From positions 318-21,391 of the forward strand of contig JAENRP010000523.1 of NCBI GenBank assembly GCA_024741835.1: a DNA stretch of 21,074 bases, given 5' to 3'. Position 1 is the stretch's first letter; every line of letters begins with the position of its first letter. The position numbers were made by a program, and so were the translations under genes. The notes beneath the pieces were generated by a model. It did no database searches, had not been told where the DNA came from, and was given only the letters and a program-made list of their open reading frames with translations. Source of the stretch: Diplocarpon mali. Taxonomy: Eukaryota; Ascomycota; Leotiomycetes; Helotiales; Drepanopezizaceae. This document shows positions 1 through 20,732 of this stretch, one piece after another.

Positions 1-5
1 CGCTT

Positions 6-34
6 TTTACCTATAGGCTGGGCCTAGGAGTTAG
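6..34. repeat. 29-bp palindromic element PE1
   Basis: 14+1+14 architecture; right half GGCCTAGGAGTTAG. It lies beyond the proposed stop of ORF A. If ORF A extended this far, PE1 would be read one base out of the usual phase and supply the TAA at 33-31. Confidence 0.7.
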
Positions 35-430
35 AAAAAGAAACTAGCAAAATAAACAAATAAGCTATAAAATCGCAAAAAACAATTAAAATAGAACCAA
101 CCTAAGCGTTAGTTTTCCTTAGTTCTCTTTAAAGGATAGGGAGAACTATTACTAGATAATACTCTCTTTATAGAGCGCCTACTTCTTTTTAATAGCTTGC
201 TATTAGTATTAGAGGAACTAGGTCTTAGTATGATAGGCGTCTCTGTGCTTCTTACTAATGCTAGTATAGTATGACGACTTCTGCTAATAGGGAGAGAAAC
301 TTATATTATAGCATCATCATTATCTTTATCTTTATTATTATTATTGTCCTCTAGAGATTCGTCAGCGGCTAAGGGGGGGGCGATAGGTAACTTAATAAAT
401 AACACTTCCTTCTCTTTGCCTTTGGTCAAA

Positions 431-459
431 TCAAGTCGTAGGCCAGGCCTAGGGGTTAT
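431..459. repeat. 29-bp palindromic element PE2 (in ORF A)
   Basis: Left half TCAAGTCGTAGGCC. Read on the minus strand in the ORF A frame as ITPRPGLRLD. It sits about 3123 nt from the ORF A start, matching PE6 in ORF B (about 3093 nt). Confidence 0.8.
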
Positions 460-1252
460 ATTAGGGGTTATAGTATAGGGTTTCTTAGTGCTATACTTCT
501 TAAGAAGTATAGTCTTATTAATTATATTATCAGCTTTGATATCGTTATTATTGCCTTTTATCTTAGTCTACGATTTGTCTCTATATAGCTGTAATTCCAA
601 TTGTTGAATCATCTTTTATATGTTTGAAAAATCTTTAAAGAGTTCTTACTTATATCTCTTTAGATATATTGCCAATTGCGTTACGTCTTTGGAAAATAAT
701 TCCTTTACTATTATTACTACTAATAGGTTATTCTACGATCTTCTACCTATAAGGGCCTCTGATAATAGACCACCTTTCGTTATACTAAGGGTTGCATAGA
801 ACTTTGCAGAAGATTCTCCTGCTATGCCTTATCTTGCTATACTTAGTCTCTTTATATTAAGTGAGTTGATGAGAAAATCTTTTAAGTTAGTGCTATTCTT
901 AAGTGAATTATTATTAACAACTTCTATATAGTTATTATTAATAGTAAGAAAACCTCCTTTTCCAGGCTCTCTATTGGAGTCTAAGTCTACGAAAGTACCT
1001 TATCTTATAAATATAGAGAATAGAGCAGTCTTGTTAGAAATGTACTTATCTAATAATGTTCTATCCTTAGTATTTAGTTCTTTCTATTATACTGCGCTTT
1101 ATGCTAGATTAAGTGAGATCTATTAAGTATTCTTAAGGCAGTAGGATATGAGACTTAATAATTTATATGACTTTTCCCAAATTGCAAATTCTTTAGTAGA
1201 TTATTTTATTATAGGAATTATATAATAGTTAATAGTTCTATTATTAGGGGAG

Positions 1253-1281
1253 CTGACCTGCGAACCGGGCCTAGGAGTCAA
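1253..1281. repeat. 29-bp palindromic element PE3 (in ORF A)
   Basis: Right half GGCCTAGGAGTCAA. Read in the ORF A frame as LTPRPGSQVS. Its position (about 2301 nt from the start) corresponds to PE7 in ORF B (about 2208 nt). Confidence 0.85.
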
Positions 1282-2482
1282 TTTCATAAACCTAGTATTA
1301 ATATCAATTTTGGTAATAACAATTCTCAAATAGTAGTCAATCTCTATAAACTATATAGGCTTAGGATAAGCCATTAGCTTATATAAAGAATTATAACAGG
1401 TTAGTAGAGCACTAAGATATAATCTATAATGCATTCTTAATATCTATTATATTAAGCTATAAGTTATATTATAGAGGAAGGCGGAAGGTGGCGATGATTT
1501 CTTATCTAAAGTGCGGAAATAGTATCTGTACATTTCTGCCTCTTCTTATGCCAAAGTCACAAACGAACTCTTCCTGCGAATACTATAGCCTTATATGCGC
1601 ACTATACCTAAGAATATATAATTAAATAGTTTAGGCATATTTAAAAAGCCTTTGCTGCAGAGTGATATAAAGTTGTCTAAGGTTAGTATAGACTTATACT
1701 AAGCGGGGGTCTAGGCGATATTATAGAATAATTTCAAAGCTTTAGGCGCTATCTTAAACTTAGCAAATCCTAATAATATATCTTTTTTAACCTGGCTTGC
1801 TATTCTATTACTAGTAGCTATAATTGCATAATTCCCTAGGTGTAGTAAAAACAACTTTAGGTTAAGAGCAGTGCAAAATTTGTAGATATTAGACGATACG
1901 TCTTTGTTATTAAGGCCTATTGTCGCTAGCTCATAGTACTACGCGTATTATCGTTTATAAAGGGCATAGAATTTATCAAAATTAAAGTCCTTAAACATTC
2001 CTACTATAAATTTGAAGAGTCTTGTTTTTATTTCTAGTATTACTATAATCTTAAATCTATCGCTATACTATAGTATTATCTTAATATTAAGGGGAACTTG
2101 ATAGTATTCTATAGAGATAATAGTTATGCTATCTTTTGACTTTTCTTTAAGAATATAATAGTTACTATTCAATTTCTTATAGTTGATAAAGAACTATATG
2201 ATATTATCTATAGAGAATTCGTCTTAGTGCAGTTTTATGATTTGTTTAATAGCTCTTGCCGTTCCTTCCTATGCTAATAAAACTTCTCCTTAACCTTCCT
2301 TTCTTAAACGCTTTATTATCGACTTATAGAATTTGAGAACAAACTTTTGCAAGTCCTTAGGAAAGGATTAAACGATATTAGAGATATCTTTTTTAATATT
2401 ATTAAAAATTTTTAGCATATTAGTAATAGCGCTATTCTCTTCCTCTAGTGAATCTTCTTCTAAGTCTATATTATTATATATG

Positions 2483-2511
2483 TTAACCTGTGGGCTAGGC
2501 CCGCGAGTCAA
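2483..2511. repeat. 29-bp palindromic element PE4 (in ORF A)
   Basis: Right half GGCCCGCGAGTCAA. Read in frame as LTRGPSPQVN. ORF B has no copy at the corresponding place, so this copy was gained in ORF A or lost from ORF B. Confidence 0.85.
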
Positions 2512-2668
2512 CTTCTTTACTATTAGTGTTTGAGGTATTCTAGGTATTTCTAAGGACGGTGATTTAAATATATCTGAGTTTAAAGCTTTAGGGTTATAAT
2601 AGTTAGCAGTTTGCGTTTCTAGTATTATAGGTACCTTATGCTTAAGGACTTCTCTATTACGTGCTGAT

Positions 2669-2697
2669 TCTACTTATAGGCCGGGCCTACGAGTCAA
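2669..2697. repeat. 29-bp palindromic element PE5 (in ORF A)
   Basis: Right half GGCCTACGAGTCAA. Read in frame as LTRRPGL-stop-VE, the stop being TAA where CAA or CGA is expected. It corresponds in position to PE8 in ORF B (885 versus 822 nt from the start). Confidence 0.88.
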
Positions 2698-3582
2698 ATT
2701 TTCCTTATCAGTTAGTTCCGCTAAGGGTGGCAGCATTTTCTAGGCAGTAGGAATTATAAATTCCTATCTTTCTATTTTATTATTAAAATAGTTTATAGTA
2801 TACTTAGCGAGATAGATTATCTTTTCTTTTATAATAAGTAGACTATATTATAACTGTTATAGGCTAAGGGTATTTAAAATTGTTTGGTTAGGAAGGGCTA
2901 GACTATTGTACTATATAGGATCGTCTTTTATAGTCTAAATAGTAGTATATATAATAGTACTTAAGAACCTAACAAACTTTCTACCTTTTATATTATTGCC
3001 TTAGAGTTTCTTTATGCCTTTTTAGATAGTGAAATGATTTAATACCTATATAGCCTTTGCTATTAGTTAGTATATTTTAAAAATTTTGCCTAGTCCTCGT
3101 AGGGCGTTATTGGCTATAATGTCAGTTATAAAGTAGGTTTAGAAGAGGGTACTATAAATGCTACCTATAAACTGTAGCAATCTTTTCATACCTTTATTCT
3201 TTTTGTCTCGGTTTCTTTAAAATAAATCCACTAATATAGAATAACCTTAATACTCTTATAAAAACTTTTCATAATTAATTCCTTTGACCTTAAGCTCTCC
3301 TTTAAGAAAATCATCAAAGCCTAAGAACCCCTTCTTAACGGTAGATATTCTATAGTTAAGTATATTAATAGAAGAATTCAAGAATACTTATTATTCTATT
3401 TCGCCTAACGTTCTATAGGTACTTATAATATCTTCTAATAACCGAAGAGTCTTGCTATCTTATAAGAATCTACCTTCTAATATTAGTTTATTGCTAGATG
3501 TTGCCAAAGACTTGCTGCCTAAGGCAATAAGTGATATATTCTTCTTAAGTGTGACCTTTTTACCTATGCTAGGGAGGGCCAT

Positions 3583-4068
3583 AATGAATTATTTGACAAA
3601 AGTGATAGGGTTCCTTGCTAAAGAATAAATCTTTAAAAAGAATTTATTAAGATTGGAAGCTTAGATTAGAAAAGATTGATAATAGAAAGATAATACTAGT
3701 AGTATTATTAGTGCTAGTGCTAGGTCTTAGTAGGGTTATAGAAAAGGTAAAAAAAGTAAAATCGTAGTGCAAGGAGAGGTTTATTTATAGAGATAGGAAT
3801 CGCATTAGCGCGCAAAGAAAAAGTAGGTATAAAGAGGCCGAAAGTGGGAGTAAAAGTGGGGTATAATGCATATAAGGACCTATAATTGGTAAATGATAAT
3901 TATTAAAGGTAAGGATGATATTTTAAAGGTAAGCGTTAGAAAGTTATATATAAAGGAAATAATCAAGGGATAGATTATATAAAGAATAAAGTAGAGTAAA
4001 GAATATATATAGAATAGAATAATAAATAGAGAATAAAGAGGTGCTAGTATATAGAAAGTAGATAATCC
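3583..4068. other. Purine-rich spacer between ORF B and ORF A, no gene seen
   Basis: The plus strand is rich in A and G (so pyrimidine-rich as the upstream region of ORF A), with many short stop-containing frames and no palindromic element. It could hold the ORF A promoter or the ends of an element, but no direct or inverted terminal repeat was found. Confidence 0.5.
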
Positions 4069-4327
4069 TTAAAAAAGATTCAACTCGAATTCGTAAGTTC
4101 TCCAAATGGTCTTTTCCAGCTATGATAGGCTAGATTCTCTAGATTGCTTGACTCAATTATTAGTTCTATTATCACTTTAGAGTCTTCTTCTCTTATATTG
4201 GTTCTTACCTCTCGGCGATTTCTCTAATTTAAGTATCTCTATTAAAGGAACCTCTGTTTATACTCTTAGGTTTAGTGGCCGAAGTTCATCCGAACCATCT
4301 TATAGGCTGAAGCTAGCTGAGTCTAAC

Positions 4328-4356
4328 CTTATTCGCGGGCTAGGCTCGCGAGTTAG
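4328..4356. repeat. 29-bp palindromic element PE6 (in ORF B)
   Basis: Core CGCGGGCT-A-GGCTCGCG is still strongly self-complementary. Read on the minus strand in the ORF B frame as LTREPSPRIR. Confidence 0.85.
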
Positions 4357-5212
4357 TCTTAGCGTTTCTAAGCTTAAGGGTAAAAATAGAAGATTAGTTC
4401 CTAAATTAGGGTCTAATACTATACTAGCGTCTCGGTTCGTTTCTTTTCCGAATTTTCTTGCAATAAGGCCTTTATCAATTAGTACATTAGGCTCTTAGAT
4501 AGCATTTACTTTATTACATTATCCCTAAGACTTAAGTTTATAAAGAAGCGACTTAGTATTTATAATATTCGTTTAGGCCTTAATAAGGGCGTTAAAGAGT
4601 TTTTGATTATATTCTATAAGGTAGATTTTCAATTTATCCTTATTAAGAAGGAACAACTCCTATACTTTAATTATAATAAAAGGATCTATTTAAGAGCGCC
4701 GACTAATAATGGCTTTAAAGAGGCTGCTGCAGTTCTTAAGATGAAAAGCTACCTTAAAAGGTATAGTAGTTCTATTTATATTAATCTATTAAGGCACTAG
4801 AGGTTGCTCTAGAGCAGAGATTGAAAAGATAAGATTAGAGATTCGAGTCTTATTTTCCAAGGTATTCTTATCGCAAATAGCTGTATAATTATTATAAAAG
4901 GCTATAAAGCCACTAATTCTATAAAGTTTATCTAAGCGCATTTTAAAAAGGTGCCCTTGTTTTGTTATTATTATAATAGGGTTACTATTATTAGTAATAG
5001 GTCGTAAGATCTCTTTTTACTTCATTTTTATAGTTATATAAGCTAGCTGAGATTTTAAACCAAGTGCTTAGGAAGTCTATCGATTTATCTTCTTTATAAA
5101 TAGAGTAAGTTTCACATTCGATTAAGAGCCGACCTACCTATTAAGGCTTTTAAAAGCTGGCCTTTATTCAATCGGTAGGATCTGATAATCTAAGACTTGC
5201 TTTCTAATAAAA

Positions 5213-5241
5213 TTGACTCGCAGGCCAAGACTGCGAGTAAA
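5213..5241. repeat. 29-bp palindromic element PE7 (in ORF B)
   Basis: The left half is the consensus half site TTGACTCGCAGGCC. The right half AGACTGCGAGTAAA carries changes. Read in the ORF B frame as FTRSLGLRVN. Confidence 0.9.
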
Positions 5242-6598
5242 AATCGGAATTTCTTTATTAGTAGTACTTATATCCTTCTTTATTAAAATGATTTAATTGT
5301 AAAGACTAAGGCCAATTAATTAAAGAGGTTTAGGGTAGGCTATAAGCTGATAGGCTCTTCTACTTTTCGCTATTATAGTTAAGAGGTAGAGTTTATAATA
5401 CATTTAAAGGACTTATTAAATAAGATTGAATATTATATTATAAAGAAAATAAAAAGGTATAAAGGTCGCGTTATCTATAAGGCAGAAGTGATAAAGGTAT
5501 ATCTCTACTTCTTATTTTATAATAGAGAGGAATGTACTTATAAAAGCACTATTATTAATAGTAAAATTATCGGTTAGGAAGCGGCATTTAAAGGGTTCAG
5601 GCATTATAATTGACCCTTCTTCCTTTATTTCCTCTTACTATTTATTACTTAATAATATTAAAAAGAAAGAATTATTCTATTCAATTGGCTCTAACGCCTT
5701 TAAGGCTTTAGGATCAGCCTTGAATTTTATAGCACTTAAAGATGCTTCTATTATTAATAGGTTAGATTTGCGTATCCTTAAAGAGATAAAGAACTGATTA
5801 TTAAAGTAGATTAGAAAAAGATTAATATCTTTTACTATATAGAGAAGTTTGAAGTATTTAATAGTTTTATTAATATTAAATCCTTTATAATTGAGACTAT
5901 AGTAAATTAAAAGAGAGCGAATATAAAGGTCGCAAAGTCTTCTCCCTTCGATTCCTACGCTAGGAAGATACTATCGAAAGCGAGTCTTTATTGCAAAGGA
6001 TACTTAAATATTATATCGTTCTCTAAGCTTAAGGTTAAGAATAACCGATTAAGGTATATTGCTATAATTACAAATGTCTTAATTAATAGATTCCTTTTTG
6101 CGTTCTCTTTCTTATAAGATAAAATAGTCTCGCTCGGCATCTAAGAGATTAGGTTCTTAACTTTTATAATTATTAAAGAATTAAATAATATCTATAAGGG
6201 CGAACTTATCTAAGATAAGCTATTAAATCTATCTAACGGCTCTCTTAATTGTCCTTAGAGTAATAGGAATAGGGTCTTCCCTTATATTATTGTTTTTAAA
6301 ACAGTTATATATAAATATAAAGAAGTTAAGAACTAGCTCCTTTAAATTATTAAAAAAGGAGTTTAAATAAGCGCGCAATCCTTTAATTTCAAATTGCAAA
6401 TTAGCTAAGGTGGCTATTAAATAATCTATCCTTCTTAAAGGTTAAGCTAAAATGGGTCGTTTAGCTAAAGGAGAGTCCTTTAAAGATTTTGAAAATTCTA
6501 AAGAGGCTATATTAAGCGTTTAGGTAGTTTATTCGATAGCGGTTTTTAGAATCATTTCGATAAGAGGCAAGTTAGGTCTAGTTTTAAAATTCTCGTTT

Positions 6599-6627
6599 TT
6601 AACTCTTAGTCTAAGACTATAAGTTAA
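6599..6627. repeat. 29-bp palindromic element PE8 (in ORF B)
   Basis: Halves TTAACTCTTAGTCT and AGACTATAAGTTAA around a central A; heavily transition-mutated. Read in frame as LTYSLRLRVK. Confidence 0.8.
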
Positions 6628-7449
6628 ATTATATAATTTAGCACTTATTATATCTTTAGGTTAAGAAGCGAATTTTAAAATAGGTTTAACTATAAATAAC
6701 TAATTCCCTTCTTTATTATTAAAGAAATCTTATCCAAACCCTAATATAAGAGTCTAGTTCTCTTTTAAAATAAGCAAACTATAAGTAGAAGCGTAAAGCC
6801 TTAATATATTAATAATAGTACTATTAGGTAGGGTAATATCTATAGCTTAATTTGATCTTTTTATAGCCCTATTAGCTATTATAAGTACTGCATTAGATAA
6901 GCTTATAAATCTGCGACTATAAATTCGATTGCTTTAGAATTTTACTACTCCTTCTTAAATAATAAAAAAATTGAGAATCTAAATAACTTTAGCTATAGGA
7001 GTATTTTCCTTAAGAATTTTTAATAATACTCGCCTTCTATTATTAGAATCAATATTTATTAAAAAGCGCAAATGAAATAGGAGTCCTCTCTTATTAATAG
7101 CTAAATTATCTAATTGTTTAATAGATTCTTCTCTTTTATCTTAGTCTATTTTGAAAGTGTCGGCCAAGGTTATGTATTAATCTATATTAGCTAAGAATTC
7201 CTCTTTAGAGATTCCCTTTAATCTTAATTCTTCGGTTAAGAAGTCGTCAAATTAGAGAATTCTAAGGACTACTTAGGTTAAAAGGTTATTAATAGCATTT
7301 GCGTAAGCTAAAAGGAGTTTTTATTACTCTATATCTCCTAAGGCTATATAGGTCGATTTAAAGCTCTTTAATAATACAATGGCTCTGCCGTCTTCAGAGA
7401 AGTTTATAACTAGTGCTTATTTATCCCCTATTGCAATAGACAAAACCAT

Positions 7450-7839
7450 TTGTAAGTTCTTTAAAGGTATATTACTTATAAAAGATGGGGAGTATAAATA
7501 AGAGAGTTTAATAAGATATAAGAATTAAAAGGGCATATAGGCTGCAATAGATTTGCTATATATATATTAAGGAAATTGGACTTTTTATTTATTATTTAAG
7601 GAAAGTAATAGGAATGCTATAATTAAAGGCTAATATTAAGAATGTAAAATAAGTTAAAGCAGGTAAGAATTTAAAGTGATCCTAAAAGATCCATATCTTA
7701 AATAATAAAGGAGGCGTCTTTGCCGAAAATTTAAAAATAAGAATTAGAGAAAAGTAGGATAATTAATAGGCTAAGAAATCGTTTAGTATTCCTATTTGCA
7801 TTCTTTAGATATTTTAAAAATAATAATTTAAAGTTGCGA
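7450..7839. other. AT-rich spacer between gypsy pol and ORF B, no independent gene seen
   Basis: The minus-strand pol frame and the ORF B frame are the same frame, and no TGA separates them, only TAA/TAG that RIP can create. Whether this is non-coding, the pol tail or the true N-terminus of ORF B cannot be decided by eye. A gypsy 3' LTR would be expected hereabouts but no match to the region upstream of gag was found. Confidence 0.45.
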
Positions 7840-7861
7840 TTAATTAGGTATTTTAATATTC

Positions 7862-7890
7862 TTTACTTATAGGACCGGCTTATAGGTTAA
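7862..7890. repeat. 29-bp palindromic element PE9 (gypsy pol C-terminal tail)
   Basis: Halves TTTACTTATAGGAC and GGCTTATAGGTTAA. Read in the pol frame as LTYKPVL-stop-VK, downstream of the integrase C-terminal block. Confidence 0.78.
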
Positions 7891-9296
7891 ATTAGAAAAA
7901 TCTTAGTCTTTATCTAAGGGTTTAAAATTGCTTATATCGCTGTCGGTTCTTATAAAGGATTCAGAGGTTATATCAATTTCTGATTTATCTTCTAAAGGGA
8001 ATAAGGTTTAATTGCATTAATAAAAGCGCTTTAATTAATTAGCTGCGAAGGTTCCTTTAATATCGACTCTATTAAGTTCTTAAAGAGAATAGTATCCCTT
8101 TTCTTTCTATTTAGACTTAACCTTAAATAGATTAAGCTATTAATAGTTAAGTTTAATATCTGCTAATATATTAATACTTCTTATAATATTATAGACTAGG
8201 ATAAGATTATCTTTTTAAATAGGGTGCGTTTTAAGTACTTTAAAAGCAGCCTATACTTCCTTAGCTTTTTCCTAATATTATTTCTTTTGCAAAATGATTT
8301 CCTTTATATCTATATCTTAAAGCTTAAGTTATTAGTATCTTATTACTAGCAAATTGGAATAGTTCTGAATTTGACTATAGTTGAATAATCTCTAAATAGG
8401 CTATTAGGATTTAAAAGGGAGCTATACCTCTTTACTATAGATAAGGAAAAATAGTATAATTCCAATCAGTTTATAGATTATCGTTCGATAAGTAAAGAGT
8501 ATTTTATAAAAGTATTTTATCTAATTCTTAAATCCTCTATAGGTAACTTTAAATAGCTTATTAAAAATATCGCAATATCCTCGCTCTATTATTCTATTAG
8601 CTTTCGAGTTATACGCTAAGATTTAAACCCGTTTGATATTATATTTTCGTAAAAAAGCTTTAATTACTCCTTTATTTTTAAGGCCTCTATTAATAGTTAA
8701 TCTATTAAAAAGTCTATAGCAATAGACTACGTCTTCTTAAAGGAACTTTGCAATAGATTCAAAGTTAGCAGATCTTAAAGGTCGTCCTTTAGGCCATCCT
8801 AATAGGTCTTCCTTTGCTAAAATAAAATATATAATCCTATTTTCGATTATTAGTACTTATATAATATTAAGACTAACTTTATAAAAAAGGCCTAATAGCT
8901 AGGTTAGGAATAGGGGATTCTCTTTATAATTAGGTTTTCGTTTCTAATAATAGACGCAACTTTTCATAAAGGCTTTGCAATCCTTAAAAGAACCCTTTTA
9001 AAAGAATTTCCTTAAGAGTCGGTAGTAGATAGACTTAGCTCTTTAATAGCCAGTTTCCTTATAAATATCCTAGATAGCCTTAGTCCTTAGTTTTTTATTA
9101 TTTAAGCAGAATTGTATAAGGAATAAGTTATCGCTCCTTTTAAATAATCGTCTTTCTTACATTAGATAAATTAAAGCTTTAGCTTTAAATTTTTAAAAAT
9201 CTTTAAAAGCAATTGTCTTTAGTCGTCTAAGTGTAATTAAAAATTTCGCAATTTCTTTAAAGTCACTTAAGTAGTTAAGTGATAAAATTCTCTTAT

Positions 9297-9325
9297 TTAA
9301 CTTACGAGCTAGGCTTATAAGTCGA
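9297..9325. repeat. 29-bp palindromic element PE10 (between gypsy RNase H and integrase)
   Basis: Left half TTAACTTACGAGCT, right half GGCTTATAAGTCGA. In the pol frame it is read one base out of the usual phase (RLISLARKL). This phase would meet a TGA in the consensus half site; here that triplet is CGA. Confidence 0.8.
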
Positions 9326-11263
9326 GTCCCTTTAAAGCGATATATCGATAGATAATTAACTTTATTCTCTACCTACTTATTAATATCTATTTTATCTTCT
9401 TTAATTAAATTAAAGGGGTAAGGACAAGTTCTTCTTAAAAGGCTATTAGCGGCGGTGTTTTTCATCCTTAGAATATATTTGACTTTAAAGTCTATTAGTC
9501 TTATTTAAGTAATCCATTTTATTAGTAAAGCTCTTAGTAGGTCACTTATAGCTCTATTCAATTATTCTATTAGTACTTTAATATTAGTTTTAAAGATAAA
9601 GTAAGTGCTATAAAGGTCGCTTTTCATCTTTTTTATCACTTTTAAAGCGCTTTTATATTCCTACTTAATAGTATTATACTTTATCTCTATTAGATTCTAA
9701 AGACCACTTTTAAAGCAAGCTAGATATCTTTTCTATTAGCTATTAGCTTATTAAAGGATAGCATCCTATCTGATTAAGCTTATATTAACTATTAGTATAA
9801 TTGGCCTAGCATTAGCTCTATAGTCTATTTTAATTAGATATAGCGCTTTAAGCAATACTTACTTTAGTTATTTTATAGCCTTTATTTAAGGTTCCTCTTA
9901 TTAAAACTCAGCCCCTTTTTAAAATAAGGCGTAAATAGGTACTGCCTTTTTAGCGAAATCCTTAATCTAAATATAATAGTATACTATAATGCTAATAAAC
10001 GCGCGAGCTTCTGCCATATTATTATACCTCTTCTATTTGTCGATTTTAAGTACTTTAGCCCTTTAAGGACTTCGGCTATTGGAATTAGTAATAAAACTAA
10101 CAATTTCTATTAATAGAAGATAGTATTATAACTTTGGACTAACTATTGCTCCTACCCTTTTAAATCGTATAAGTACTTAATTTAGGTTTTAAATATATTT
10201 TATTATAAATCATTATATACTAAGAAGAACTTCTTTGTAATTATAGAATGATTTTAATCCTTTTACTCTTATATTATCTATATAAAAGAGTGCAATATTA
10301 GGTATATAATCTACTAGTATCTTATAAATTACTTAGATAAATTGAGCGATCGAATTTATAGCCTCTTAAGGTAATCTTATTATTTGAAGTAGCTTAAGAG
10401 GGGTTTGAATTGCTATTATATCTCTCGATTTAATATTAAGAATAAATTAGTTATATTTAAAGAAGAAGTTAATAAAAGAGCTATAGGTTAATCCTACGAA
10501 TTCATTTGAGAACTTATCTATATTCGAAGGAACGTTAGCATCCTTAATAGTTACTTAGTTTATCTCTATTACTACTATTATTAATCTATAAGTTCCCTTT
10601 TCTTTTTTAGCAACTAAGAACCATTTATTCTTATAAAGGCTATTATAGAACTTAAGAATACCTTACTTTAGCCTATCCTTTAATATTTCGATTACCTTTT
10701 CTTAAAGAGCTTTAAGGACCTTAAATGTTTTCTCTTACTAGGCTTTATAAGGTATTATCTTAATCTTAATATAAGGCGTGACCTCTTCTTAAATCTAGCT
10801 AAGTTCCATTTAATTAAAAGCTAAGGCGTCCTCTCAATTTGTTAAGGTTTTATAAAGTAGTTCGCATTCTTACTTTATTAAGTTATCTCTAATTTTTAAT
10901 ATATTGAAACGTTCTTTTATTAGCCGATATCCAATAGGTTTATTAGAAAATCTGCTTATAATAAACTTATCAAATTTACTACTTAGCTTTAAAGGTTAAA
11001 GCTTCTCGTCTTATTCAAACCAATTATCTAATCCTCTAGGCTTTAAGCTATTAGAGATTCCCTAATCTACTAATCGTACTTTATCAGCCTTACTTTTATA
11101 TATAGTTCGAATATTAGCTAGTACTATACTTCTCTACTTCTTTCCTTTTTTATTAAATCTTATAAAATAGTCCGAATTTTCCTTTTTAAAAATAAATAAA
11201 AGATTTTCTAAGTTATCAATTTGAAGTATATAGATGGAAATGTTATTAGTAATTTTATTATTT

Positions 11264-11292
11264 TTCACTCGCGGGTCTAGCTTATAAGTGGT
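11264..11292. repeat. 29-bp palindromic element PE11 (N-terminal part of gypsy pol)
   Basis: Left half TTCACTCGCGGGTC, right half AGCTTATAAGTGGT. Read in the pol frame as TTYKLDPRVK. Confidence 0.75.
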
Positions 11293-11425
11293 TTTTAGGT
11301 TTTTTAAAATGATTAGTAAATTGTCGAAATTTATAAAACGAACTCTCTTTTCTACTTTATTTTTCTTTTTTCTTAATTATTAAGCTGATAAAACGCCGAT
11401 TGTACTATTTTTCAAAATTCTAGAT

Positions 11426-11454
11426 TTAACTCCTAGTCTAAGACTATAAGTCAA
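11426..11454. repeat. 29-bp palindromic element PE12 (N-terminal part of gypsy pol)
   Basis: Halves TTAACTCCTAGTCT and AGACTATAAGTCAA; very similar to PE8. Read in the pol frame as LTYSLRLGVK. Only 133 bp separate it from PE11. Confidence 0.82.
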
Positions 11455-11615
11455 ATCGCTATTATTCAAAATCGGCAAACTTACCTTTCTTTTGCTATAA
11501 CTCTTTGCTAAGTGCCTTCCTTTATTAGTATTAAGCCTAGCCCTTATACTAGCTAATCGTTTCCTAAAACCTTATTTTAAAATTCGGCTATATCTCTTGC
11601 GATAACCATTTGTCC

Positions 11616-11622
11616 TTTTAAA
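11616..11622 (-). promoter_or_regulatory. candidate -1 frameshift slippery heptamer (T TTA AAA)
   Basis: On the minus strand TTTAAAA is positioned T TTA AAA relative to the gag-protease frame, the canonical X XXY YYZ arrangement. It lies 37 nt before the gag-frame TAA at 11579-11577. Slipping back one base enters the frame that carries RT, RNase H and integrase. Upstream of this point the pol frame is dense with stops. The DNA is A/T-rich and RIP-mutated, so the heptamer could be accidental; no downstream structure was assessed. Confidence 0.3.
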
Positions 11623-13341
11623 AATCGATCTATATTTTAAAGACTAGCTTTTATAAGACTATCTCTAGGATAGTTAAATATTAGCTAAGATTTTAAAATA
11701 AAGGGCATTCTTAAAAGAATATTATTTAAAGAATTCTCTATCATTAGAAAGTTAGTATAATTAACGATTCCTCTGACTTTAACCTTTACGTTTTTCACCT
11801 ATCTATTAAAATTGTATTTTAATTTAAAGATAGTCGAATAAATAAGGAGTCGATTGCTAATAATTATCAATAGAGCCATTTCTACTACTTTTCTAGTTAT
11901 TATATTAACTTCTGAACTATAATCAATTAGAGCCTTTGCTTTAACTGATTCTTCTATTAAATAAATAATAATAGGGCTTTTTATCGCAACTATTAAACAA
12001 TTTCGATTAATATTCTAAGATATTAAAGCTATTGCCATAATATTATAGTACCTTTAGGTTCCTTTATCTTTTGCAATCTAAAGACATTTGATTAAGGCTA
12101 GGTGCTTCTTAGAGTTCTTTCGTATTACAATTTCCATTTCCTTATTATTATTCAAATCTTTAAAGGCAACTAGGATATGCTTTCCTAATACTTTATTAAA
12201 GTGTCTAATTAAACCAAGTAGGTCTTTAAACGTAAGGTTAATTTACTAGGCTATAATATTCTCTATAGCTTTCTCTATTACAGTTGAACTAGTATATTTA
12301 TTAACGAATTTTTCCCGCTTTAATATCTATCTCTTTTGCTTAAAGTCAAAGGTCCGCGTAATAACTTTAACTTTTTAATCTTTAAGCTTAGAGCTATCTT
12401 CGTCTATTATATCTCTAATCAATTCGTCTACTATATCGGCTTTATCTTTATCTACTATAGTTCTAGATTATTAAGTATCTTTTAACATTTAGACTTTATA
12501 TTAAAATTCTTAAGTTGCATATATTGATTTCTAGACTTTGGCTAGTTTTATTAGTATTAGGGGAGTAGTATATTTAAAAGGACGCTAAGTATTCTAAGGG
12601 TTTTTAGATATAGAAGTAGCATTAATATTAGTAGATATATTATTATTAACCTATCTTAAGATAGAGATGCCTTTAACTTCTATAGCTATTTGATTAGAAG
12701 CTAGGTCCTTGAGAACTCCCTTAGGTAGGTTGCTAATTGGACTTATATATATATAAGTTGGAATTTTAGCATTTATATCTATAATACGCTATTATTTAAT
12801 TAAATTCTCGTCCTATTTTATACTATATATTATTATTCGAATAGTCTATAATTATAAGCGATTCTAGTACTTTTTAATAAGGATAGCTTTTAGCCTAAGA
12901 TCTCTAATGCAAAGCATCCTATACTTATTAATATATATGACCTTAGTATTAATAAAACAAAGGAAAAGAGGGCAATTGTTATAGTACTTATATAAAGCGC
13001 AGTTAGGTTCTTTATTATTGCAAAAGTTGCAGGTTAATCGTCTTCTATTACCGTTTCCTTAATACCCTATAGTATTAATATTAATAGAGTGCTAGTTAGG
13101 ATCAATTCCTCCTTCTTTAGCCAGCTATTGCATTCTTATATTAGCTGGTTATTCCAAATGATAAAAAGTAAGAGTCTAATAATAGGAACTATTAAGTTAG
13201 CTTATAGTAGCCGAGTTTTATCTATTACTAAATTAAGGAATATGCTATTTTTCTTATAAAAGATTATTAATCCTAGTTTCTAAGCTCTAGATTTAGAGTT
13301 TTACAAATTGGGTCTTAAGTTCCTTAATTCTAAGGTTGGAT

Positions 13342-13370
13342 CTTACTCCTAAGTTGGGCCTGCGAGTAAA
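13342..13370. repeat. 29-bp palindromic element PE13 (in gypsy gag)
   Basis: Right half GGCCTGCGAGTAAA, close to consensus. Read in the gag frame as FTRRPNLGVR. Confidence 0.85.
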
Positions 13371-14350
13371 AGGTATAACTACTAGGTTCTTCTTTACCTC
13401 TTCTATAACTTCCAGCGCTTTTAAGTGTTCTTAGACTAGATTCTTAAAGTCTTTAATATAAGAGGGAGTAAAGGCTTTTTCCTACTCTATAGTATTAATA
13501 GTTCTTTTACTAAGATCTGATTTTAAAGCAAAGGCTAAGAATTCCTTAAATAAGGCGAAGGTTATAAGGTCTTGCTTATCGATCTTAAAATGCTTAATAA
13601 TCTTATTTTAAAGGCTAATAGGTAATCTAAGTAAGAAAAGACGGCCTCTTTCAACTTCACTAAGTATTTTTTAGCTAATTAAGGTATTTAATATATAAGT
13701 AAAAGTCTAATAGTAGTTCTTAAGTTCCTTAGGAGTATAAGTAACTAGAATAAATTCCTTTAAGAAAGCTAGGGTATTGCGAATCTGCTATCTATCAAAT
13801 TCGCAGAATTCAGATTTAAGGGCTTTAATAAGGAGTTCCTATAAATTATAAGTTTTCCATTCGGGAAAGGACTTAATAATATCCTTACTTATATAATTAT
13901 AATAGTAAGGAAGTCGAGAAATCATATCCTCTTATATAATACTAAAATTATAATAAGTTTCCTTATATTGCTTAAGGAAATTAGTAATATTAGCGCTTAT
14001 AAAGTAAGGAGCACTAAGGGAACTAAGGAGGGGAAAGTGACTAATAATAGCCTTAAATGCAGTTATTATTATTTTATACTAACCGTTTAGGTTAATAGAA
14101 TCTATAAGAGGCAAAGGAAAAGCTTTGATATTATAAGATTAATTGCTAAGAGGAGTATTTCGAAATTCAAAAGGGCTTAAAAAACGTTTAGAATCTAAGT
14201 CAATTTTAAAGTGATTAAGACGAGTTTAAAAGGATTTAAATAAAGGGTTAATAAAAAGTTTAAAATTATTATTATTTTTAGTATTTTCTAAAATTAATAT
14301 TAAAAAAGTAAATAGCAGTCTTAAGTTATTTAAAGACATCTTTTTATCCT

Positions 14351-14379
14351 CTTACTTATAGGCTAGGCCTAAGAGTAGA
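14351..14379. repeat. 29-bp palindromic element PE14 (N-terminal gypsy gag)
   Basis: Halves CTTACTTATAGGCT and GGCCTAAGAGTAGA. In the gag frame it is read in the minority phase (LLLGLAYK), as PE10 is; the triplet that is TGA in the consensus is CTA here. Confidence 0.8.
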
Positions 14380-15061
14380 ATTCCAGATTCTATTAAAAGT
14401 TTAATCCGAGTTTGCTAAGAGATTCTAAGTAGGTACTAAATAGCTAATAGGAGCGTTGCAACTAATTATAATAAGATAAGGTTTACCTAATTAAGGACCA
14501 ATTTCTAAAATAAGGTTTATATCTAAGATTCTTCTTAACCTTTAAGCCAATTCCTATTAGTCCTTAGAATAAAGGGGTCTTTAAAGACGATTCTAGGGCA
14601 GTTTTTAAAGTTCTATTAAGCCGAGGCGGCTGAATTATTAGATTCGGATTTCTAAAGATTCTAAGGAGGCACTTTTAGTTAGAGTTTACGCTTAGTATTA
14701 CTTAAGTACTTAAAACTACTGCTATTTAAGATTGCTATTATAAGGTTTGCCAAACTTTTCATACTAGGAAGTCGAAAATTCCGAAAATCTTAGAGTTAAG
14801 GAAGAAAATAAGGATTTTTAAAGCAGAGCTAAAAAGGGAAAATCTAAGGTTATTAATAGTTGCTAAACGAAAATCGACAGTTCTAAATAACTAGGCGATT
14901 AAGAATAAGATTTTTAGAATTGATTAAAATGCTATAAGTATTTTAAAGACGTTTTTTTTTTTCGAAAGGCCGGTCTTTTAACTACAAATTAAAAGATCAA
15001 TAAGGTCGTATAAAGATAGAAATCTTAAGAAATCGGTCCTTGCATAAGTCACTAATATAAA

Positions 15062-15289
15062 ATAGAGGGGAGATAATATAAGAATAGGCCTAAGGGAAGA
15101 CCTAAAAATAAGAAGAGGAAGCACTATAAGCGGGCTCTTTTAAATAAGATATTAAGAACAAGTCCTAAGTATAGGGTATATTCAGTACTTATAGCAACAC
15201 GCGTTATCTCTATATACAGAAGATGGCCCTTTTATCCTCCTACTATCCTACGTCAATTATATGATATATATCATAAGACCTATCCATCT
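15062..15289 (+). pseudogene. Weak plus-strand ORF remnant, basic with an AT-hook-like core
   Basis: From 15080 the frame stays open for about 70 codons, to a TAG near 15290. It starts with a very basic stretch, NRPKGRPKNKKRKHYKR, containing a GRP core as in AT-hooks, then a neutral segment with WPFYPP. Upstream in the same frame are TAA codons. It could be the C-terminal part of a degraded DNA-binding protein or transposase, or chance; no family is recognised. Confidence 0.2.
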
Positions 15290-15573
15290 TAGGTCTCCAT
15301 ATTATAGTACTAAGGTTATAAAGCAAGGAATCATACCTCTTATAATATAGGTTAGCCAAATAGGGAATTATACCTCCTATTCGCCGATTGCTCGCCTCTT
15401 ACTATAAGTCTTATTCAACTTCCTATTAATAGTTGCAGCGTAAGTGCTTTCTAAGGGAAGTTAATAATCAATTATTAGTCTAGCTAAGGCTTATAACCTA
15501 TTAAGCTTAAGTAAGTCGGCGCAATAGGTAAAGGAGGCTTTTAAAAGTCGATAGTCGATATATTAATAAGAGT

Positions 15574-15578: not shown

Positions 15579-15791
15579 TGACAGAATCGAAAGGTGTAGA
15601 TTCTAGTTCTAGAGAGCTGAAGTAGTATATATACAAGGTAGGCTTACTAAGCCTTAGCCTCCGCTCCGTGCGGTAATCTCCGTACCTTGTATATTTCTAA
15701 CATGCCTGAAGTAGTATATATACAAGGTAGGCTTACTAAGCCTTAGCCTCCGCTCCGTGCGGTAATCTCCGTACCTTGTATATTTCTAACA
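15579..15791 (-). repeat. copia 3' LTR, enlarged by an internal tandem duplication
   Basis: On the element's own strand it begins TGTTAG and ends CTGTCA, giving canonical TG...CA ends. It is 213 bp instead of 124 because 89 bp (15618-15706) are repeated perfectly at 15707-15795; the repeat unit carries the 4 bases TGCC that belong to the adjacent polypurine tract. Without the repeat it matches the other LTR except at four transition sites. Confidence 0.95.
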
Positions 15792-15795
15792 TGCC
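15618..15795. repeat. Perfect 89-bp tandem duplication, two copies
   Basis: The copies 15618-15706 and 15707-15795 are identical. Each starts TGAAGTAGTA and ends TTCTAACATGCC, so the unit covers most of the LTR plus four bases of the polypurine tract. Identity between copies, despite transitions separating the two LTRs, suggests the duplication came after most of the mutation. Confidence 0.95.
15629..15694. repeat. Nested inverted repeats in the copia LTR (three-way-junction-like fold)
   Basis: A 12-bp outer stem, ATATACAAGGTA at 15629-15640 with TACCTTGTATAT at 15683-15694, encloses two small hairpins: GGCTT-ACT-AAGCC (15641-15653) and CCGC-TCCGT-GCGG (15661-15673). The same arrangement repeats in the tandem copy and in the right LTR, where one transition lies just outside the stem. 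The GC-rich core stands out from the AT-rich surroundings. Confidence 0.7.
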
Positions 15796-15805
15796 CCCTA
15801 CTATA
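15792..15805 (-). promoter_or_regulatory. copia polypurine tract (plus-strand primer)
   Basis: On the element strand, TATAGTAGGGGGCA immediately precedes the 3' LTR start TGTTAG. A purine-rich run touching the LTR is the expected plus-strand primer site. TGCC/GGCA from it is also found inside the LTR duplication. Confidence 0.7.
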
Positions 15806-16051
15806 AAGCTCTATAGAACTCAGAGTAAAGAGCCCCACATTTTTTTTTTTTTTTATATAGTCTAGGCCTTATTAACTCCTATAATATACTCTCTAGTATA
15901 TGGCGCCTACGTCTCCCTTATATGGAGTTCAGCTGCCCCGTAGTATAAAAAACGTGCGTTATAGTATAAGAGTACCTCTGACTTAGCTATATTATAGCTT
16001 TTCACCCTTTATATAGTCGTATTATAGATTTCCTCCCTATATATAGCTTTC
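15806..16051 (-). other. copia 3' untranslated segment
   Basis: Between the gag-pol stop and the polypurine tract. It holds a 15-base T run at 15840-15854 (A15 on the element strand) and two near-repeats of TTTCCTCCCT followed by TATATAGC at about 16029-16078, the second overlapping the end of the coding frame. No gene is seen. Confidence 0.5.
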
Positions 16052-19000
16052 CTATGGGTTTCCTCCCTTTATATAGCCTTCTTTTGTCGATTTTCGCTCT
16101 TGTAGGCCTATATAACCCTTGTATTTCTCGAAAGCGGGTCTTGGCAGAGCTTTTGTAAGGGAATCTGCTATATTATTATTTCTAAGTATATAAGCTACTA
16201 TTATCTTGCCTTTAGCTACTATATTGTCCCTTATATAGAAGTATTGGATGTTGATATGCTTTGATTTTGCTGAAAATTTTCGTTCCTTAGTAAGAGATCT
16301 TGCTCCTTTATTATCGAGCTATAAATAAGGTAATCGATCGAGTTGTATATTAAGGTTGGCGAATGGCTTTAGCATTTAAGCTACTTCTCTTGAGCTATTA
16401 GAAGCTGCTATTATCTCAGCTTATTTACTACTTAAAGAAGTAGATTTTTGCCTATTCGCAGCCTAGCTAACAACTCCTCTATTGTACTTAATAAGCCAGC
16501 CTTAGAATGACTTCCTATTGTTCTCTATAGCCTAAGTAGCATTTATATAAGCGTCGAATTGATTTGGTTCGCCTTTTCCATATATAATTCCATCTTCGGC
16601 GGTCTTTTATAGGTATCGCAAGAGGGGTTTTATAGCTTAGAGGTGATCTTATAAAGGGGTTGCTATATGCTATGCCAATTGGCTGATAATATAAGAGATA
16701 TCTGGCCTTATAAGGTTCAAAGGGTATATAACGCTTCCTATAATCTACTAGTAAAGTGAGATATTATTAGGTTGTAATAGCTCGTTAGTATAAGCTTTAT
16801 CTATACCTAATTTCCTTAATACTATACTAGCTAAGGCTAGTAGGTTATTCCCTTTGCAATTAGCTATTCTAAATCTATTAAGAATTTTTTTAATATAGTC
16901 TGTTTAATAGATTTGTAGCGTTTTAGCCTTGCGATCTTGTTTAACTTATATTCTAATAAAGGTGCTAATTAGCCCTAGGTCTTTTCCTTTTTAAGTATTA
17001 AGAATCTTCTTTTTAAAGTAATCGCAATCTTATTATTTTCTAATAATTAGTATATTATCTATAAAGACTAATATATACGCAGTTGTATTATTAGCTTGAT
17101 TTTCCTATATAAATAGATTTAGATCTGCTTTAGCGCTTTGTAGGCTAGCCTTTTCTATTTTATCTTTCACTAATAGCTACTATTCTTAAGGTGCTTATTT
17201 TAGGCTGTATAATAACCTTAGAAGCTTAATATAGGCTTGTTTTCAGCGAAGTTAAGGGTATAATTCGTAGAATAGGTTGCATTTATCGTCTAGTAGTGCT
17301 ATATACACGTCTTTAGCTAAGTACGCGTTTAAGAAGGCTATATCGATATCGATTTGCTCGATTTCTAGGTCTCTCGAGGCTGTAAAGGCGAGTAGAACTT
17401 GTAGAGTTATATACTTAATAATGCTAGCAAAAGTATCGAAGTAATCTACCTCATACTATTGCTCGTAGCCTTTTAATACGATTTAAGCCTTCCTTCTTAC
17501 TAATACTCCATTTACGATCTTATTTCGTAGAACTAATCTCGATTTTATTAGCTTTCTCTTAATAAGAGGTTTACTTAATATTATTTTAAAGGTTCCTGCT
17601 GATTTTACAGCTTCGAATTCACTTAGTATTGCTTCTCTCTATTCTTTTGGATTTTGACTTAATATATTATATACTAATATTACCTCTATAGGAACAGTTG
17701 GTTGATTTCCTATAAAGGTTAATGCACTCTCTTAAGTACTAATCTCGCTAAATACTCATTTTAGCTTTAGCTTTCTACTATACCATAAGGTAGGAGTCTC
17801 TATTTGCTTTAGAATGCGTTGATCAGACGCTTTAAGGATGTTTTCTATTACCCTTTAAGGTTTAGTACCTCTTACTTCAGCTTTATTGCTATAGATTTGC
17901 CTGTTTTCTAATGACTCTAACGTTATAGGTCTTTTAGTACTATGTACTCTCTCAGTTTTATATACTAGCCTCTCTATAACTCTTATAAGAGGTCTTTTAG
18001 TAATATCTACTAGCCTTATAGGTCTTATTGAGCTTATAGCACTATATGCTAGCCTCTTATTCTGAGGTCTTTCCTATAGTTGTACTTCTCTTACGTTATA
18101 CGTTAAGTATTTATCAAATTTAACATTAGCAGATATTAGTTCTTTTAAAGTCTCGACGTTTAATAGCTTATACGTCTTTGAGCTTATCATACCTATGAGT
18201 ATCTAAGCTCCTATTATAGTTCTTAACTCGAACTTACCTAGGCCATTTCCTCTATTATTTAATAGGAACGCTTTAGACCTAAATACTCTGATTTTTAAGA
18301 GATCTTTAATACATTCTGAGTACGCCTCTAATAGAGTTAGGCCTTTTAGCTCTCCAAAAGGTAGAGCCTTCGTAGGCCTCCTATTCTTCAGCCTACAGGC
18401 CCATTCCACAGCGTAGCACTATATATAGCTATTCATCTTGGCGTCGTATATGCAAGAGCGAGCTATTTTCGTAATTTCGTATATCTAACGTTCGATAATA
18501 CTATTTAAACTATACTTATAAGCAGGTGAAGGTTCTAGGGTTATACCTCCTTCTAATAGCCATAGTAAGAATCTGCCTCCAAACTCTCCTATACTATTAT
18601 CAGACCTCTAGTATATTACTAAAGTAGAGTTCTCTATCTCTAATTGCTTCTTTAGGTCTTTGATTTTTGGCTATATCTCGTCGGCGCTCTTATTCTTTAA
18701 TAGCCTTATCTAATAGCATCTGCAGGCGTTATCTACTACTAATAGGAAGTAGCGATACCCTTTAATTAATAGCGGTAGTATTCCTGATATATTGGTATAG
18801 AGTCTTTTATAAATCTTATCTATTCTTATATCTGTTTTCTTATTAAATTGCTCTTTCATTCTGCCTGCTAAGCAGCTTTTGCAGTTTCTCTCTCCTTTAA
18901 GAGCGATTCGAGCTTCTATACTTAGGCTATAGTTATTATCGACTAGCTTCTTTAGCTTAGTATAGTTAAGGTGACTTAGTCTCCTATAGAGGAGCTCTGA

Positions 19001-20416
19001 ATCCGTTTTGTTCGAGTTTTGTAGTATTGTCTCTATATTAATTAGTTCTAGAGGTTATATAAGGCTAAGGTTTATAGCCTTTTTATCTACTTCAATTGCA
19101 ATAGTAGTATGCGATCGAGATAAAGTGAATAATCTACTAAGCTATAGTATAATAAATACTATATCGTCGCCTTAATACCCTTTTGCCTCTTCTTTACTAA
19201 AGATTATAGTAATATTATCGTCGCCAAGCTTTAAGACTGATATAAGTTGAGTATTGCTAAATAATAGAATGTACTATATATTATATAGTATTAGTTTATT
19301 ATTAATAATACAGTCTCTATAGCCAATTGCTTTTAAGAGCGCGCCGTTTGCTATTCTGACTTGCTTTGAGTTATTCTACTTCCTAATTTTAATAAAATCG
19401 TTCTATATACTAGAGAAGTGTCTTATAGTGCCAGAGTCTACTTTTTAAAAAGGCTGATCTGCCTTTAAGCTTAAAGCTATCTTAATAGCTTCTATTATTA
19501 AGGCAACTTTACGTTTTAAGGAATAAGAGTAGATAGATAAGGTTATATTATCTTTAGCTATTTAAGCTTTGGCTTTATCTCCTCCTCTCTTCTTCGACTA
19601 GCACTCTGCTTTCCAATGGCCAGATTTGCTATAATTATAATACTTCCCTCCTTTTTCTCCCTTCTATATTCCTCCTTATTATATTCCTCCTCTTCCTCTA
19701 TTACCTTTGCCTTTATATCTACCTCTGCCTCTATCTCTACCTCTGCCGCAGCCTCCTCTTCCTATAAGGTAAGCCTTAGCGATTAATGCAGCTATCTGCG
19801 TAACTATAGGCGCTACCTTTAGCTCTTATCTATACATTACTTTATACTCTTGAATTGCGACGATTATCTCTTGCAAAGTTATAGGAAAGGTTTTAAGGTT
19901 GATTATAATTGAACTCTATATTCCAACTGTTAAGAGACCGTTAAGCAATTGCTTTTTCATTTAAGTATCGTTAGGAGGGTTACTATAGCCTTAGAGGAGA
20001 GCTTGAATACTCTTAAGTCATAGGATATAATTATTAAACGACTTAGAGTAGGGAATGTACTTAGCCTTATTAAACTGCTTAATCAAGTTCATATAAGTCT
20101 TAGAGTTCTCGATAAGTTTGCTCTCTCCTTCTTTAAAAGCGTTCTAAAGAGCGTAAGCGTTATTAACTATAATTTAAGTGCGATACTTTCTATTAAGGCT
20201 AAGGGTAAGGCCTTTAGCTATAGTAGCTATAGCCTTTTAGTTCTTCTTCTCTTATTTACCTTTAGATTTGGCAGATTTTAAAGGAATAGGGCCAATGGCC
20301 TATTAAAGACAGCCATTTATAGCTAAGTTTTAAATGGTAGCTGGTTCCTATTCCTAGTAGTTAGACCAATTGAGCTTGATCTTAGCGTCGTTGTTCTTAG
20401 TGGTCTTCTTAATCAT
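16052..20416 (-). pseudogene. gag-pol: copia Gag-Pol polyprotein, RIP-degraded
   Basis: One frame of 1455 codons runs from the ATG at 20416 (MIKKTTKNNDAK) to TAG at 16054-16052, with scattered TAG/TAA. Gag ends with an RG-rich stretch (about 19765-19675) and a CX2CX4HX4C knuckle at 19642-19601 whose first two Cys are now Tyr. The protease VDSGT at 19441 is intact. Integrase: the first zinc-binding His is Tyr, SHLNY is present at 18973, CxxC at 18883-18872 is intact; the catalytic triad reads Asn (18793), Asp (18601), Glu (18493). The linker at 18409-18203 is the longest stop-free stretch. The RT active site reads FIDN (17065-17054) for YVDD. RNase H blocks (KSTSLSSK, AEIIAASNSS, DNKGARSLTKE) end with a copia-type KALPRPAFEKYK tail. 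Less mutated than the gypsy body. Confidence 0.93.
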
Positions 20417-20603
20417 TTTTATTAAGTTGGGGTTATTGAAAAAAAAAGGGGTGAAAAATAAGGGTAAAAAGGGGGAGAAGGTGTGTATATATAGGGGTAT
20501 ATAAAGAGGTGTTATATAATTGTGTTTTACTAAGAAGCAGGTTTAAGAGTTCTTTCCAATTGAAGAGATTAATTAAGTTAATCGATTCTAGGAATTGCTA
20601 CTA
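20417..20603 (-). other. copia 5' leader between LTR and gag start
   Basis: A 187-base leader, pyrimidine-rich as read on the element strand, with no reading frame of note. It follows the candidate primer-binding site and precedes the gag ATG at 20416. Confidence 0.6.
20591..20603 (-). promoter_or_regulatory. Candidate copia primer-binding site
   Basis: The 13 bases next to the 5' LTR read TAGTAGCAATTCC on the element strand. Copia-class primer sites often begin TGGTAGC, matching initiator-Met tRNA; a single G-to-A would give the sequence seen. Only the first part agrees, so the call is tentative. Confidence 0.35.
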
Positions 20604-20727
20604 TAACAGAATCGAAAGGTGTAGATTCTAGTTCTAAAGAGCTGAAGTAGTATATATACAAGGTAGGCTTACTAAGCCTTAGCCTCCGCTCCGTGCGGTA
20701 ATCTCCATACCTTGTATATTTCTAATA
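20604..20727 (-). repeat. copia 5' LTR
   Basis: A 124-bp LTR whose terminal dinucleotides have become TA...TA by transitions; the partner LTR keeps TG...CA. Differences from the left LTR are three G-to-A and one C-to-T as read on the plus strand. It contains TATATATAC, which could serve as a TATA element, and the same nested inverted repeats as the left LTR. Confidence 0.93.
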
Positions 20728-20732
20728 TAAAG
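20728..20732. repeat. Target-site duplication TAAAG (right)
   Basis: Identical to 15574-15578 and directly abutting the right LTR end. Confidence 0.9.

Follow-up and report, generated by a model that had tools for sequence, protein, structure and literature searches.

A dispersed imperfect palindrome of about 30 bp recurring at constant positions of a giant Ty3-type retrotransposon of Diplocarpon mali

The stretch of DNA analysed here (the window, 21,074 nucleotides) is part of contig JAENRP010000523.1 (C523) of the Diplocarpon mali genome, which comprises 49.4 Mb in 676 contigs. A giant Ty3-type long terminal repeat (LTR) retrotransposon extends on the minus strand from position 1 to ∼15,302, with the 3' end located beyond the window edge. 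The limits of the element (1..15302) were assigned by alignment to C12:227886-243649, to which window positions 1-15,299 align in one continuous piece with 83% identity. The C12 copy is 15,764 bp in length with 245-bp LTRs that are 94% identical to each other and have CTAC flanks; the counterpart in the window is the 5' LTR at 15053..15302 (minus strand). The subject of this report is a family of 14 near-palindromes of 29 bp, all located inside this one 15.8-kb element and all present at homologous places in the C12 copy. The initial annotation had placed them in at least three unrelated-looking coding regions. Since the C12 alignment is in a single piece and the same 14 places recur there, these coding regions are all parts of a single retrotransposon. 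The palindromes occupy fixed places in the giant element and are also present in one copia family and in a further family that is probably copia, mainly within linkers of low conservation and in untranslated ends.

The domain order on the minus strand is aspartyl protease, reverse transcriptase, RNase H and integrase followed by two long open reading frames (ORFs). The frame for gag and the aspartyl protease (11688..14300), identified by a protease match, and pol encoding reverse transcriptase, RNase H and integrase (7822..11682), identified by homologues and domains, are given with approximate limits. The RNase H and integrase zinc domains of the window pol pass the Pfam cut-offs, and near relatives of pol have RVT_1, RNase H and integrase zinc domains. 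Thus, both LTRs and the pol domains in Ty3 order were found for the carrier. ORF2 (4168..7463) and ORF3 (109..3670, interrupted by many stops), also with approximate limits and on the minus strand, are tandem paralogous orphans of ∼1,100-1,180 codons with 30% identity that follow pol (window 109-7463). Nothing above the Pfam or NCBIfam cut-off was obtained for either, the sub-threshold Pfam match being PF07299 (E 0.024 to 0.21), and the best match to PDB sequences had an E value of 0.29. Four homologues of ORF3 were identified (E ≤0.001; best 7,992 candidates), all of them intact proteins of Diplocarpon coronariae with 68-75% identity to the stop-ridden copy. For that species, assembly sizes of 50.3 to 54.5 Mb and, in two strains, a repeat content of ∼34% are reported (PMC11527701). 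The carrier is like fungal Ty3-type LTR retrotransposons in having gag, protease, reverse transcriptase, RNase H, integrase and LTRs, and differs from them in its length and the two extra paralogous orphan ORFs. Window positions 7800-14400 matched 23 places in the genome (best 23 of 527 candidates) and positions 1-4080 gave 37 matches (best 36 of 305 candidates).

The palindromes, which are not assigned to a strand, are named here by their position in the element. Site 915 (14351..14379) is outside the supported ORFs, probably in the 5' leader upstream of gag, and site 1924 (13342..13370) is in the gag frame in phase 0. Since gag has no homologue here, that frame is without homologue support and both the leader placement and the phase of site 1924 are tentative. 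Four sites are in pol: 3840 (11426..11454) and 4002 (11264..11292), both in phase 0 in the linker before the reverse transcriptase, 5969 (9297..9325) in the RNase H-integrase linker, and 7404 (7862..7890) in phase 0 in the C-terminal tail. ORF2 contains sites 8671 (6599..6627), 10057 (5213..5241) and 10942 (4328..4356), and ORF3 contains sites 12592 (2669..2697), 12778 (2483..2511), 14008 (1253..1281) and, in its C-terminal tail, 14830 (431..459), each in phase 0. The last, site 15245 (6..34), is past the ORF3 stop in a 3' untranslated stretch, the intact ORF3 proteins of D. coronariae ending with KRTKEN just upstream. Two places are common to ORF2 and ORF3, sites 14008 and 12592 of ORF3 being homologous to 10057 and 8671 of ORF2, respectively; site 12778 faces a gap in ORF2.

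All 14 stretches proposed in the initial annotation were present at their coordinates. A 29-column profile derived from them scored the 14 at 24.5 to 39.8 bits and the next-best place in the window at 8.9, with leave-one-out scores of 17.1 to 38.5 bits. A score of 24.5 bits was reached in none of 300 first-order and none of 150 third-order simulated windows, the highest value being 19.9. The leave-one-out score of the weakest copy, at 11264, was 17.1 bits and within the tail of the null distribution; it was accepted because further copies of the element also have the homologous site (element 4002). Genome-wide, a transition-tolerant pattern detected 1,878 sites, stricter patterns 90 sites (3 mismatches) and 167 sites (exact), and an asymmetric pattern with 2 mismatches 137 forward and 148 reverse sites, where one place may match both strands; every control, reversed in the case of the transition-tolerant pattern, yielded 0 matches. 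Since no simulated window among the 450 reached the weakest observed score and the genome-wide controls were empty, the palindromes are far commoner than expected by chance, and an artefact of chance or composition is refuted by the counts and has a negligible probability. Exact degenerate patterns also found 0 stretches in each of the viral and prokaryote genome collections.

The copies are near-palindromes rather than perfect ones, with 5 to 12 of the 14 arm positions pairing in the window copies. Symmetry was counted on the majority string of each site with C/T and A/G merged to hide changes attributable to repeat-induced point mutation (RIP). At this purine/pyrimidine level 19 of the 29 columns were invariant over the 14 sites and 8 of the 14 arm pairs were complementary in every site, the exceptions being 1/29, 3/27, 5/25, 8/22, 12/18 and 13/17. 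Predicted RNA folding energies for the C12 palindromes were -4.6 to -16.6 kcal/mol, values obtained without a shuffled control.

The phase of the palindromes relative to translation is biased. In the C12 copy, 11 of the 12 coding sites are in phase 0 starting at the first codon position and encode an LTRGPGPRVN-like peptide. The remaining coding site (5969) is in another phase, open at this position, and reads RLASPACES. By chance, at least 11 of 12 would fall in a given phase with a probability of 5e-5 if three phases are allowed and 0.003 if two are open; with the places common to ORF2 and ORF3 counted once (9 of 10), hand calculation gives 4e-4 and 0.011. The ORF3 proteins P0070, P0071 and P0072 of D. 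coronariae have the motif at four places, with variants such as SSRGPGPRVS in P0072, while P0073 has it at three places and the fourth falls in a larger gap. At the first of these sites LTRGPGPRV is invariant and the neighbouring residues vary. The phase bias and this invariance are what would be expected if LTRGPGPRVN were a protein motif under selection and the palindrome a by-product of codon choice. That explanation is considered very unlikely, however, since one coding site is in the other phase, one site is past the ORF3 stop, and the third-position columns 6, 9, 21 and 24 are invariant over the 14 sites at the purine/pyrimidine level. A protein search for host-gene copies with a 374-residue piece of P0070 (87 residues scored, two motif copies) gave none at E ≤10 among 255 candidates; the search says little on host genes because a single decapeptide would hardly score.

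To distinguish an insert from an ancestral motif, the pol translation with stops masked was compared with 66 homologues (7,993 candidates scored), of which P0002-P0021 are 35-54% identical. The phase-0 peptide was present at the palindrome places in 0 of the 66, and the three matches of a motif search over all of them (in P0002, P0030 and P0050) were unrelated. That search covers phase 0 alone; site 5969 was judged by eye, and no counterpart was seen in 21 aligned relatives. The places occupied by the four pol palindromes are those at which the 21 relatives vary most in length and sequence, and several relatives end short of the first or last. An ancestral protein motif of pol is rejected on these results. 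The presence of palindromes at homologous places in ORF2 and ORF3 (30% identity) indicates either long retention or repeated targeting.

Conservation of the DNA was evaluated in alignments of element copies that omitted L001 and L024 (the window again), L042 (another family), L010, L011 and L039-L041 (the C12 copy again, kept once as EL), aligned pieces of <400 bases and rows with ≥20 missing letters. Columns with <5 letters were skipped in the comparison of palindromes with flanks, whereby site 15245 (2 rows) was excluded. In the seven ORF2 and ORF3 sites, columns with transversions numbered 7/203 inside the palindromes versus 128/1,050 in the flanks (p 6e-5). At third codon positions the counts were 0/63 inside versus 42/350 in the flanks at a minor count ≥2 (p 0.0011) and 3/63 versus 70/350 at a minor count of 1 (p 0.002); first and second positions alone gave no significant contrast (p 0.14, 0.2). 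The contrast in third columns was weaker when all 13 sites with sufficient rows were taken (5/117 versus 77/650, p 0.014). That third-position transversions are rarer inside the palindromes indicates conservation of the DNA or RNA over and above the peptide, a result that also argues against the codon-choice explanation given above.

The changes within the palindromes mostly follow the direction expected of RIP. Of the 84 differences between C12 and the window in the 13 comparable palindromes (site 15245 being without a window row), 83 are transitions and 72 run from C to T or G to A in the window, the direction that RIP predicts and that the initial annotation had noticed among the deviations from consensus. 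At site 5969, 4 of 19 copies carry a variant that is also present at other sites, and the 150 flanking columns are without transversions, a pattern suggestive of exchange between palindromes.

The dyad symmetry and the conservation in excess of that of the peptide are also consistent with a working cis site, either a dyad for a putative dimeric binder (a host factor or the ORF2 and ORF3 products) or an RNA hairpin of the life cycle, the factor being shared by unrelated elements. The palindromes are placed along the whole element at distances of 162 to 1,967 bp with both ends included, and the element encodes the orphan paralogues ORF2 and ORF3, neither of which has an above-threshold family match, features that agree with this explanation, as does the report that plant VANC proteins target sequences of transposable elements (TEs) that often form tandem repeats (PMC5735166). 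On the other hand, three arm pairs (3/27, 8/22 and 12/18) differ between sites, mostly without complementary swaps. In addition, the structure predicted for ORF3 was of no use (mean pLDDT, predicted local distance difference test, 28.9), and a copia element located in the same window has no palindrome. A cis site is the main rival, and is regarded as possible but clearly less probable than the reading developed below.

The palindrome is not confined to the giant element. The sites for which surrounding sequence was examined, a small part of the 1,878, were in retrotransposons; the 15 best-matching of the 90 three-mismatch sites (L009-L023) were all in the giant element. The copia-type copies that were read establish more than one carrier family. 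A locus designated copia-II (L042) contains four in-frame palindrome units with neighbours 45 or 48 bp apart, each reading FTPRPGPRVN-like followed by a short spacer, immediately before a basic RKRGRP stretch. The family is probably copia, as judged from a sub-threshold SH3_retrovirus match (E 0.048) and a reading of the sequence. In the array region (L042:198-364) the length offset was a multiple of 3 in 40 of 40 places, the query's own included (best 40 of 224), steps that are expected if translation matters. A further family, copia-III (L006, L007), has three copies at spacings of 64-65 bp beyond the end of a copia RNase H. This position downstream of the RNase H argues against selection on a peptide, and the tandem arrays of copia-II and copia-III are in keeping with a cis site. 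The copia-III piece gave no Pfam match, and direct comparison with the pol of the window copia element gave E 3e-8; near-full-length places were obtained as the best 40 of 1,177 candidates. Palindrome pairs, both spaced 1,772 bp, were also observed on contig C8 (277089-278889 and 308557-310357), a hint that there is probably a fourth carrier family.

The reading that best accommodates these results, with an estimated probability of about 0.55, is that the palindrome is a module of ∼30 bp of imperfectly palindromic DNA that was copied into LTR retrotransposons, multiplied by its carriers, kept in frame and later mutated by RIP. The phase bias, the conservation beyond the peptide and the alteration in the direction of RIP are observed features of the sites. 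The module would have been copied repeatedly into ancestral elements, and landings that were out of frame or broke a domain would then have been lost. The genome-wide numbers would have arisen mainly via retrotransposition of the carriers, with RIP mutating the copies afterwards. The copying route is the least certain step; we would guess at reverse-transcription template switching aided by hairpins, or at gene conversion between palindromes, either being compatible with RNA-borne carriers and tandem arrays. The initial annotation proposed a mobile or copied palindrome that tolerates life inside reading frames. A module residing in transposon ORFs agrees with that proposal, while 14 recent independent landings do not agree with the sites being fixed features of one family.

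Several results weigh against the copied module. No empty allele was found at the 14 sites in this genome (2 to 19 aligned copies per site), such that insertion itself was unseen, and inspection of the flanks by eye revealed no target-site duplication, such as would mark a MITE or DNA transposon relic, at any of the 14 sites, although old insertions could have lost one. The palindromes at homologous places of ORF2 and ORF3 would be unexplained by a purely selfish passenger. At sites 1924, 5969 and 10057 the transversion diversity is higher inside the palindrome than in the flanks. The conservation test assumes independent columns although the copies are related, which makes its p-values guides only, and it masks C/T and A/G changes. 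A bound cis site better explains long retention and dyad symmetry, but not the arrival of ready-made palindromes, and a copied module and a cis site can hold together. A further reading would be an address tag of a retrotransposon community, in which the dyad, bound by the ORF2 and ORF3 products, would counter silencing of the tagged DNA or aid its replication and would have been borrowed by copia elements for their polyprotein linkers and tails, an idea that we regard as unlikely.

In-frame palindromic inserts are already known from bacteria and mobile palindromes from fungal mitochondria. The Rickettsia palindromic elements (RPEs) are repeat modules located in frame inside unrelated ORFs and encode a conserved peptide (PMC10969869). 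The module described here is like RPEs in being located inside reading frames in a compatible phase, with all but one of the coding sites in phase 0 and the other in an open phase, and differs in that RPEs are ∼150 bp and reside in bacterial genes whereas this module is ∼29 bp and resides in fungal LTR retrotransposons. The GC42 cluster of yeast mitochondria is a GC-rich palindrome in AT-rich DNA with a conserved stem, many copies, and variants that merge and shuffle (PMC4478555). A palindrome with a conserved stem was also found here. However, GC42 is mitochondrial, 42 nt in length, targeted to the nucleotides AG, and present or absent between strains, whereas the sites here are in LTR elements on many contigs, and no target site was seen. 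The VANC targets of Arabidopsis VANDAL transposons are short TE sequences, often tandem (PMC5735166), and in that respect similar to the repeats described here, which are tandem in places. They differ in that the VANC21 targets are in non-coding regions, while the sites of the giant element are mostly coding and any binder is hypothetical.

Among the papers listed by literature searches, judged by title and abstract opening, none dealt with palindromic inserts in fungal nuclear DNA, and the term palindrom- had 0 occurrences in the D. coronariae genome paper (PMC11527701). Within that scope, the proposal that there is no named fungal counterpart is uncontradicted for nuclear DNA; in fungal mitochondria the palindromic mobile GC clusters of yeast are a named counterpart (PMC4478555). 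The significance of the module is that Ty3-type and copia-type retrotransposons of one fungus have it in common, at coding as well as non-coding positions, with its DNA better kept than adjacent third codon positions. This raises the questions of whether sequences of ∼30 bp spread between retrotransposons via RNA or cDNA, and whether unrelated elements have a common cis site with one protein reader. It is also a warning for annotation, since identical peptides in unrelated elements may stem from a DNA module.

The copia element of the window mentioned above is separate from the giant element, extends over positions ∼15,581-20,728 and has an RVT_2 domain and no palindrome. Its terminal repeat is present three times, at 15581-15703, 15670-15792 and 20606-20728, and is thus doubled at one end.

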